From: Pseudoclavibacter caeni
GTDB lineage: Bacteria; Actinomycetota; Actinomycetes; Actinomycetales; Microbacteriaceae
Reading direction: 5' to 3'
Assembly (NCBI RefSeq): GCF_008831125.1
Contig: NZ_WBKA01000001.1
Location: forward strand, 434,001 to 498,000
Length of the DNA: 64,000 bases
Position numbers and translations under genes: made by a program. Position 1 is the stretch's first letter. Every line of letters begins with the position of its first letter. Below the pieces are notes generated by a model that saw only the letters and a list, made by a program, of their open reading frames with translations, was not told the origin of the DNA and searched no databases. Shown piece after piece: positions 13,767 to 17,291 of this stretch.

Positions 13767-13929
13767 GCCGGGGCGGGACAGTCGATGTGGCGTGGACACC
13801 TGCCGGTCTTATCGACGAGGACGAAATACCCCTGTGCGCCGTAGCCAGGTCACACCATGGAGAGGCAGGCAGGCCTGTGTCTCGGTTCGTTCACAGTGGG
13901 GCGTATGCGGGGGCGACATTGGCGGAACG

Positions 13930-14018
13930 GTGAAGCACCAGCTTGCACGGGGAGCACCAGCGCCATCATCGCCACTTACAAGGACAAAACGGCTCATCCC
14001 CGCTCGCGCGGGGAGCAC
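13930..14018 (-). CRISPR. Remnant Type I-E CRISPR array: two repeats, one spacer
   Basis: A 28-bp repeat at 13991-14018, with the inverted core CCCCGCTCGCGCGGGG, has the sequence class of actinobacterial Type I-E repeats. Exactly 61 bp to the left, 13930-13957 keeps 3'-half identity (ending CACGGGGAGCAC) but is degenerate in the other half. The 33-bp spacer is 13958-13990. By comparison with the E. coli repeat, the array reads on the minus strand, so the degenerate copy is the trailer-end repeat, and the leader and all newer spacers are missing. The intact repeat abuts a cas7e fragment with no leader between. Confidence 0.85.
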
Positions 14019-14222
14019 CCCGGGGAAGGCCGCCGTCAGGAGGCGCTGACCCGGCTCGCCGACGAGGCTCTGAACATCGACGAGGTGTACGGGACCGAGC
14101 CACAGGCCTCGTACGTCATGACCATCGCCCCGCTCAGCGCACCGGACGAGCTCGGTGAGCACGTCACGCTGCCCCAGCTGCTCGAGCGACTGCGGGGCGA
14201 GCTCAGCGGCCAGCAGGCGTGA
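14019..14222 (+). pseudogene. cas7e 3' fragment
   Basis: The frame from 14019 to the stop at 14222 encodes 67 residues that look like the C-terminus of Cas7e (CasC), the backbone subunit of Type I-E Cascade: helix RQEALTRLADEAL, then a loop and VTLPQLLERLRGEL. The preceding codons in the same frame are CRISPR repeat and spacer, so the gene has lost about its first 80 percent by a deletion ending at the repeat edge. The stop overlaps an in-frame GTG that leads into cas5e, as expected for the cas operon. It has no start of its own. Confidence 0.75.
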
Positions 14223-14230
14223 GGCCACGC

Positions 14231-15013
14231 ATGTCAGTCACACACTCGCTGGTGCTGTACCTCGCCGCACCGATGCAGTCCTGGGGCGTTGGCAGCCGCT
14301 TCCGCTCACGGGAGACCGAGCCCATGCCGACGAAGTCGGGCATCGTCGGACTGCTCGCCAACGCGTTGGGACGCGGTCGGCGGGATCCGGTCGACGACCT
14401 CGCCACGCTGGAGCTCGCAGTGCGGCAGGAACAGCCGGGGACGCTCCTGCAGGACTACCAGACGGCACGTGACCTCGACGGCGGCGGAAAGACGCGCCTG
14501 AGCACCCGACACTACCTCGTCGACGCCCGGTTCCTCGTCGCCATCGGCGGAGAGCAGCACGCGCTGGAGTCACTCGCCGAGGCGCTGCGGCGGCCGGCCC
14601 GGCCGCTGTATCTCGGGCGTCGATCGTGTCCGGCCAACTGGGACCTCCTCGACGAGCATGAGCACGACGGCGTCGCCGGAGGTCATGCCGTGCGGCCGGG
14701 CGATCCCCGGACCGTGCTCGAGCAGGCCGCCTGGCGAGCGGCCTCCCGAGTACGGCAGACCCTGCCGAAGACGGTGAGGCTGCCCCTGCTCGTCGACGCG
14801 AGGCGAGGGGAGACCGGTGACATCCTGCACGATGCCCCGCTCTCCTTTGATCCTCAGCATCGCGACTACCGAGACCGTGCGGTGACCAGACTGGCCGTGA
14901 CGATGGACAACCCCGAGGGCCGATCCGATCGGGACGAGGAATCCGACGCCGACGCGATCGCTGACGAGGGTCTGGTGACGGACCCGTTCCTCGAGGAGGT
15001 GCGGAACGCATGA
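14231..15013 (+). CDS. cas5e: Type I-E Cascade subunit Cas5e
   Basis: A 260-residue Cas5 with the diagnostic N-terminus LVLYLAAPMQSWG and the SRFRSRETEPMPTKSGIVGLLANALG stretch that shapes the RAMP fold (quoted here in parts: SRETEPMPTKSG, then VGLLANALG). In Cascade it caps the 5' handle of crRNA. ATG 14231 gives the standard MSVTHSL start; an in-frame GTG at 14219 overlapping the cas7e stop is possible. The frame is complete and the residues look intact, but cas3, cse1, cse2, most of cas7e, cas1 and cas2 are absent, so it cannot make a working interference complex here. The stop overlaps the cas6e start by four bases. Confidence 0.9.
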   Translation: MSVTHSLVLYLAAPMQSWGVGSRFRSRETEPMPTKSGIVGLLANALGRGRRDPVDDLATLELAVRQEQPGTLLQDYQTARDLDGGGKTRLSTRHYLVDARFLVAIGGEQHALESLAEALRRPARPLYLGRRSCPANWDLLDEHEHDGVAGGHAVRPGDPRTVLEQAAWRAASRVRQTLPKTVRLPLLVDARRGETGDILHDAPLSFDPQHRDYRDRAVTRLAVTMDNPEGRSDRDEESDADAIADEGLVTDPFLEEVRNA

Positions 15014-15672
15014 CCTGGTTCTCCCGTGTGCTCATCAACCCCAACCTGCGCCAGGGGCGCCGGCTGATCACCAACGCCCACGTCATGCATGCCGCGGTGC
15101 TCGCCTGCTTCCCACCCGACGTGGCGGCGAACGGGCGAGTCCTGTGGCGGCTGGACGAGCAGCACCCGCGCTACACGCTGTACATCGTCAGCCCGGCACG
15201 GCCTGACCTGCGTCCGCTGTCCGAACAGGCCGGGTGGTCCACCGAGCCCGGTCAGATCCTGGACTACGGGCCACTGCTGGACCGGGTCGAGCTCGGCACC
15301 ACCTGGCGGTTCCGCCTGCGAGCCAACCCGGTGCGGTCCGTCTCCGCCGGACGGGGACGACGCGGCCGGATCGTCCCGCACGTCACTCCGGAGCAGCAGC
15401 TCGGCTGGCTCGCCGAGCGTGCCGGGCGCCACGGGTTCGCCCTCGTCGAGCGGGATGGCACGAGCCTCACCGCCGTCACCGGCCGGGCTGACCGGCACTT
15501 CGTCAAGAACGACCGGCACACGGGCGGACGCCGTGCGGTCACGCTGCGCGAGGCCCAGTTCGATGGCGTGCTCGAATGCACTGACCGGCAGCTGCTGCGG
15601 CAGACGCTGACCCAGGGCATCGGTCGTGGCAAGGCCTACGGGTGCGGCCTGCTCACCATCGCCCGGGTATGA
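15010..15672 (+). CDS. cas6e: Type I-E CRISPR RNA endonuclease Cas6e
   Basis: A 220-residue Cas6e (CasE), which cuts pre-crRNA at the repeat hairpin. The N-terminal LINPNLRQGRR and the NAHVMHAAV helix with a likely catalytic His, and the C-terminal glycine-rich GIGRGKAYGCGLLTIA loop, are family marks. Size is normal. ATGA overlap with cas5e shows the old operon. No cas1 or cas2 follows; 150 bp of non-coding sequence leads to a glycosyltransferase gene instead. The protein may still process crRNAs from another locus if one exists outside this window. Confidence 0.9.
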   Translation: MTWFSRVLINPNLRQGRRLITNAHVMHAAVLACFPPDVAANGRVLWRLDEQHPRYTLYIVSPARPDLRPLSEQAGWSTEPGQILDYGPLLDRVELGTTWRFRLRANPVRSVSAGRGRRGRIVPHVTPEQQLGWLAERAGRHGFALVERDGTSLTAVTGRADRHFVKNDRHTGGRRAVTLREAQFDGVLECTDRQLLRQTLTQGIGRGKAYGCGLLTIARV

Positions 15673-15821
15673 GTCGAGGCCCGGTCACATGCGGGGCGGA
15701 GCCGGGCGGGCGGCGTCCGCGCGCCGTGCCGCGCCGTGCCGCGCCGGCCGCCCCGCGCTCGCACCGGATGGTCCGCGCCCCGCGCAGGCCGTTCCCGGTC
15801 GGCATGCGCGAGAATGGCCGG

Positions 15822-17291
15822 GTGACTCCGACCGCCCCGCGCCCGCTGCCCGCTCCCGACGCTGCCGTGCTGCCCCGCCGTCGACTGCGTGAGCGGCGTC
15901 CGCCGACCGGCGAACGTTCCGGGCGCACCCCGCGTTCCGGGCGCACCCGCCGCGCGGGCCTGCGGGTGTGGTCGAGCCCGATCGCGTTGACCGCGGTGTT
16001 CCTCGCCGTGCACGTGTGGCTCGGGGCGAAGGGGATCACCCAGTACGGGCGCCCGTTCGGCGATGTGACGAGCGTCTACCACTGGTGGTCGTACCAGGCG
16101 CTCGCCGAGGGGCACTGGTACGGCATTCTCGAGACCTGGGTGTACCCGGCGGTCGCCCTGGCGCCGATGGCGGCGACCCTCGTCATCGCGACGGTGCTCG
16201 GCGTCACCTACACGGTGGCGTGGCTGATCCTCGTCACCGCGCTCGACCTTCTCGCGCTCGCCGTGCTGACGGACGGCCTGCGCGATACCGCCCGCATCCG
16301 CGTCGCCTGGCTGTGGCCGGCCGCGCTCCTCGCCCTCGGCGCCGTCTCGCTCGGCCGCATCGATACGGTCGCCCTCGCACTCGTCGTCATGGCGCTCGCC
16401 CTGCTCGACCGACACCCGGCCGTCGCGGGGCTGCTGCTCGCCCTCGGCGCCTGGATCAAGGTGTGGCCCGCCGCCGTGCTGCTCGCGGCCCTCGCGGTGC
16501 ACGGACGCGAGCGGCGGATGCGGCGCGGGCTCGTCCTCCCCGGCGTGTGGCTGACCGCCGGGCTTGCCGTGCTCGCGGCGGCGGCGTCCGCGATCGCCGG
16601 CCGTGGGCTCTCCGGCCTCGCCGTGCTCTTCGGGTTCATCGGCGGGCAGGCCTCGCGCAACCTGCAGGTCGAGGCCGTCGCCGCGACCCCCGGCCTGTGG
16701 GCGGCGCATGCGGGGCATGGCGCCGTCGTCTACAACGATGAGATCTACACGAACGAGCTGATCAGCGCCTCCTCGCCGGCCGTCGCCGCCGTGGTCACCG
16801 TCCTGATGGCGGTCGTCGCGGCGGCGATCGCGGCGCTCGCGTGGCGGGCCGCGCGTCCGGCGTCGCATCCCGCCCCCGTCGCCGCCCGACAGAGAGACCC
16901 TGCCCGGAGGGAGGATCGCGCCCGCACGGCCGTCCTGCTCGCCTGGACGGTGCTCGCGCTGGTCGTCACGTTCATCGTGTGCAACAAGGTCGGCTCGCCC
17001 CAGTTCGAGGGGTGGCTCATCGCCCCGGCGCTGCTGCTCGCCGGTGCCCGCCCGCCGCGCTGGTGGGCGCCGGTGGGACTCATCGGCGTGGTCCTCGGGC
17101 TCACTCAGACGATCTACCCGTCGCTGTACGGCTGGCTGCTCGGGCTCGCCCCGTGGATGCTGTGGGTCATCACCGCGCGCAACGCACTGCTCGTCGTGCT
17201 GCTCGGCTGGTCGATCGTCGCGATCGCCGGGCTGGCGTGCCGGCCCGCTCACACCGCCGCGCTGCGGGGCCGGAGCGGCGCGTCTGCGTAG
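15822..17291 (+). CDS. GT87-type polyprenyl-phosphate mannosyltransferase-like membrane protein
   Basis: A 489-residue protein with a basic N-terminus and about ten hydrophobic segments. The luminal loop after the first helix (YGRPFGDVTSVYHWWSYQAL) places acidic residues as in GT-C/GT87 (DUF2029) enzymes, which transfer mannose or arabinose from polyprenyl phosphate to envelope glycans. GAIKVWP-type sequence (LGAWIKVWPAAVLL) is also typical of DUF2029. GTG 15822 lies six bases after GAGAAT, a possible -10; ATG 15804 in frame is an alternative. The substrate cannot be read from the sequence. Confidence 0.8.
   Translation: MTPTAPRPLPAPDAAVLPRRRLRERRPPTGERSGRTPRSGRTRRAGLRVWSSPIALTAVFLAVHVWLGAKGITQYGRPFGDVTSVYHWWSYQALAEGHWYGILETWVYPAVALAPMAATLVIATVLGVTYTVAWLILVTALDLLALAVLTDGLRDTARIRVAWLWPAALLALGAVSLGRIDTVALALVVMALALLDRHPAVAGLLLALGAWIKVWPAAVLLAALAVHGRERRMRRGLVLPGVWLTAGLAVLAAAASAIAGRGLSGLAVLFGFIGGQASRNLQVEAVAATPGLWAAHAGHGAVVYNDEIYTNELISASSPAVAAVVTVLMAVVAAAIAALAWRAARPASHPAPVAARQRDPARREDRARTAVLLAWTVLALVVTFIVCNKVGSPQFEGWLIAPALLLAGARPPRWWAPVGLIGVVLGLTQTIYPSLYGWLLGLAPWMLWVITARNALLVVLLGWSIVAIAGLACRPAHTAALRGRSGASA

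Follow-up and report, generated by a model that had tools for sequence, protein, structure and literature searches.

The loss of CRISPR-Cas systems by deletion is documented in S. epidermidis, where deletions of the whole locus span 66–306 kb and have been attributed to SCCmec excision, to transposons or to homologous regions (PMC3784566). There are also E. coli strains that carry repeats but no cas genes (PMC12736100). Self-targeting by CRISPR systems is discussed as a cause of genome deletions in PMC3630108 and PMC6990116.

The locus described here lies within a window of 64,000 nucleotides (the whole stretch of DNA that was analysed). The contig measures 570 kb, and the genome, of 2.06 Mb, is listed as 100% complete. 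The locus is very probably the relic of a second type I-E system, left behind by a deletion so recent that, in the main, this alone would explain why Cas5e and Cas6e are still intact. The features of the locus are collected in Table 1.

Table 1. Features of the type I-E locus in the window, with positions counted from the first letter of the window.
Feature	Position	Strand	Basis
Terminal CRISPR repeat, degenerate; oldest, trailer end of the array	13929-13957	-	GTGCTCCCCGTGCAAGCTGGTGCTTCACC; first half fits the repeat, hairpin lost
Sole remaining spacer, 33 bp	13958-13990	-	Sequence
Type I-E repeat, intact	13991-14018	-	28-mer identical to the array repeat of L104 and L108; hairpin -15.7 kcal/mol
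Probable deletion junction, placed with an uncertainty of a few bases	14018-14019		Repeat end at 14018; Cas7e homology from EGRR, 6 bases on
cas7e 3' fragment, 67 codons and stop	14019-14222	+	Alignment with about 30 Cas7e proteins; tblastn
cas5e, intact	14231-15013	+	TIGR01868, PF09704; mechanical ORF from GTG 14219
cas6e, intact, conserved His27	15010-15672	+	TIGR01907, PF08798; aligned to T. thermophilus Cse3
Place of cas1-cas2 in the nearest relatives; nothing remains here	15673-15821		Relaxed tblastn; gene order in relatives

Read along the minus strand, the array remnant consists of an intact 28-nt repeat (GTGCTCCCCGCGCGAGCGGGGATGAGCC), the spacer and a decayed repeat. The same 28-mer is the array repeat in the intact I-E systems of two relatives from the same order, where it occurs 100 times (L104) and 94 times (L108), and the repeat in the window is therefore no chance palindrome. 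The locus has no room for a leader, and one good repeat and one decayed repeat without a hairpin are all that is left of the array. As crRNA processing is generally understood for type I-E (Cascade, Cas6e), this spacer could not yield a normal crRNA at this locus, because the repeat downstream of it has no hairpin and the leader is gone. Searches for its target gave no match in IMG/VR and none in phage records, and an Rfam scan of 9–22 kb returned nothing.

Read along the plus strand, the repeat is followed directly by CCC GGG GAA GGC CGC CGT, with which the final 67 codons of a cas7e begin; cas5e and cas6e come next. These codons (14019-14219; segment EGRRQEALTRLADEALNIDEVYG) align with the Cas7e C-terminus of about 30 I-E systems, with up to 46% identity and an E-value of 3e-9 in tblastn. 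No Pfam or NCBIfam model matched the open reading frame of the fragment, whose identity comes from tblastn and the alignment. The alignable part starts at EGRR, two codons beyond the repeat and after a loop that is variable among relatives, and the break can thus be placed only to within a few bases. The original prediction had described a repeat and 33-bp spacer, a repeat edge that passes directly into the end of cas7e, and a deletion joining the two. The identical 28-mer in the two relatives and the Cas7e alignment bear out the anatomy, and the deletion is supported by the other cas5e neighbourhoods examined, all of which have a long cas7e before cas5e wherever this can be judged (L038, a short contig fragment, is not judgeable).

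The missing partner genes were sought by profile searches of the whole genome. The Cas7e, Cse1 and Cas1 profiles, as well as cas3_core above its cut-off, matched on one other contig only (C2), which carries a complete I-E system with all eight cas genes, cas3 to cas2, and a divergent upstream array of 214 repeats. This agrees with the earlier claim that the genes between the array and the 3' part of cas7 are gone, and it answers the proposed genome search for cas3, cse1, cse2 and other I-E arrays with one complete system of a different lineage. A full cas7e belonging to the window locus was not found elsewhere, and since C2 alone carries these genes and its system is of another lineage, no missing half is hidden in another contig of this assembly. 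Relaxed tblastn detected no remnant of cas1 or cas2 at the locus, an absence that adds to the original account. The locus thus shows one of the features of a relic, a truncated cas7e joined to unrelated sequence, with partner genes found only in the C2 system.

The two systems of this genome share their subtype, a divergent upstream array and the stem and loop of the repeat (CCCCGC-GCGA-GCGGGG), and they differ in lineage, in the repeat itself and in completeness. The Cas5e of C2 is 38–43% identical to that of the window. The C2 array (L011:10379-20000 and L012) holds 213 different spacers; its first 53 or so leader-side repeats have the form AGTTCCCC, and almost all of those further on have the form AGCTCCCC, with a single AGTT repeat standing alone at 17213. 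The pattern is what a single change in the repeat would leave if every later insertion had copied it. An identical sequence stands at both ends of C2 (L011:1-180 and L012:3440-3646), inverted at one end relative to the other. In our own reading it resembles the end of a transposase gene, and the intact system may accordingly sit between two inverted IS copies.

Phylogeny places the two systems apart. In a tree of Cas5e and Cas6e from 53 loci, with one genome per species, the window groups with L099, L102, L106 and L072 (support 96/86), all of which come from another family of the same order. The C2 system groups instead with the systems of two congeners (100/100). Judged by these sequence relationships, two I-E systems with different origins were once present in this genome; that of the window was probably acquired horizontally. 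Its nearest homologues are about 50% identical at the protein level. A search of genome contigs with Cas5e gave one Bifidobacterium match at 40%, and plasmid records gave matches to Cas5e only, all below 60% identity. In three congeners, MetE and a GT87-like gene lie 1.5–2.4 kb apart, with unrelated reading frames and no cas genes between them. Such an empty site fits a gain in the lineage of the window, although loss in the congeners is also possible; comparison of the flanks with the congeners for insertion edges gave short matches only.

The nearest relatives also indicate what the ancestral locus looked like. Where examined, they have cas3, cse1, cse2, a full cas7, cas1 and cas2, whereas the window retains just the 67 codons of cas7e, cas5e, cas6e and one repeat-spacer unit. 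It had been assumed that the array should follow cas2 and that an array upstream of the cas genes departs from the normal order. This premise does not hold for this lineage, as two of the four nearest relatives (L099 and L102) have their array upstream, on the cas3 side and in the window's orientation, on the strand opposite to the Cascade genes; in L099, a decayed repeat also marks the far end of the array. In L099, L102 and L106, cas3 lies on the strand opposite to the Cascade genes. The genes cas1-cas2 follow cas6e in most relatives, including the four nearest. The next sister to the window's clade, L051 (G054), has cas1-cas2 upstream in an unusual order: array, cas1, cas2, cas3, cse1, cse2, cas7, cas5, cas6 and a second array.

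From this comparison, the ancestor probably had a minus-strand array with its oldest end on the left, then a leader, cas3, cse1, cse2, cas7, cas5 and cas6, in all likelihood with cas1-cas2 as well. A single deletion running from a repeat in the array's oldest part to a point 67 codons short of the end of cas7e would have removed some 7.5 kb together with the rest of the array. This figure is a fair estimate of the lost cas part, since by its coordinates L099 has about 7.5 kb between the inner end of its array and the codon that matches the break. A deletion of this extent explains the junction because the arrays of L099 and L102 lie upstream in the same orientation. It may have arisen by illegitimate recombination or through short homology at the repeat, and it is plausible that recombination began there. 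A candidate short homology at the junction is GAGCAC, and in L102 GAA CAC stands just ahead of GRR, close to the corresponding position. The cas1-cas2 pair probably went in a separate, second event, as these genes follow cas6e in the nearest relatives and are absent here; an ancestor with cas1-cas2 upstream, as in L051, would allow a single event. Without Cas3, Cse1, Cse2, most of Cas7, Cas1-Cas2 and a leader, the locus alone could neither interfere nor adapt. Against the deletion reading, it counts that the event is reconstructed from relatives with no more than about 50% protein identity, and that two events are required unless the ancestor resembled L051 in this respect.

Both remaining proteins are full length and score above the curated cut-offs, Cas5e with 139.7 bits against TIGR01868 (cut-off 68.95) and Cas6e with 77.5 bits against TIGR01907 (cut-off 45.2), as expected from the original prediction of complete genes. 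Cas6e keeps H27, which we take to be the catalytic histidine. Over 93 columns of Cas5e and Cas6e with a conservation of 90% or more, the window has 4 departures; the mean in the 52 other loci is 3.4, and 19 of the 52 depart as much or more. In simulations, 8% of the runs with 40 unconstrained substitutions gained no more than two new departures, and 27% acquired no stop. There is thus no excess damage at the conserved sites, which leaves two readings: a recent loss, with fewer than some 40 unconstrained substitutions since, or continuing selection on the genes. Recent loss and retention for another use had both been proposed. The former explains the intact frames equally well, and the latter gained no positive support, although undamaged genes also fit continued selection and count to that extent against the deletion reading. 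The balance tips towards recent decay rather than a new role, because no promoter-like site was seen for cas5e-cas6e and a full I-E set is present on C2; this genome is GC-rich, however, which makes the promoter scan a weak test.

A use in trans would have Cas5e and Cas6e process or bind crRNAs from the C2 array, or join C2 subunits in a mixed Cascade. The intact frames and conserved sites, among them His27, speak for such a role, as do the stem and loop shared by the two repeats. Yet a complete cas5e and cas6e are already present on C2, the proteins of the two systems are only about 40% identical, and the weak scan gave no promoter-like site. Moreover, the compact arrangement of the window was not found at any other locus of the sample; it is particular to this genome there, with which a conserved new use does not fit. 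On balance, a role of this kind is improbable, and the specific form in which an orphan pair is retained to act on the crRNAs of the second system, for example by extra processing of its 214-repeat array or in a mixed Cascade, is a shade more improbable still.

Two further accounts concern the origin of the junction, and both are very improbable. The break falls at the edge of a repeat, the kind of place where misassembly can occur, and an array and a cas operon could have been misjoined there. The missing parts are on no other contig, however, the genome is listed as complete, and the contig continues for 570 kb. The window's repeat variant is also present just once in the genome: a genome-wide pattern search gave a single match on the reverse strand, located in the window, and 213 on the forward strand, of which those listed were all C2 variant repeats. 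Alternatively, one I-E system could have cut the other, and repair of the cut could have left a large deletion. The coexistence of two I-E systems and the published discussion of self-targeting lend this some appeal, but among the matches listed, the C2 spacers had only short, chance-like similarity to the window or to the cas genes of relatives, and none of note in the locus. A true self-target may have been lost with the deletion.

The preferred reading, a relic left by a recent deletion, makes the locus one more example of known CRISPR turnover, an ordinary though cleanly preserved one. Its interest lies in the two I-E lineages that the sequences suggest for one genome and in the possible use of Cas5e and Cas6e by the C2 system. 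It also offers a clean case in which one CRISPR system was lost, a second of the same subtype was kept, and the break lies at a CRISPR repeat. As in the S. epidermidis and E. coli cases, a locus or its cas genes have been lost, sometimes with repeats left behind. Unlike the S. epidermidis deletions, the one proposed here has an end that coincides with a CRISPR repeat, and the site shows no IS element.
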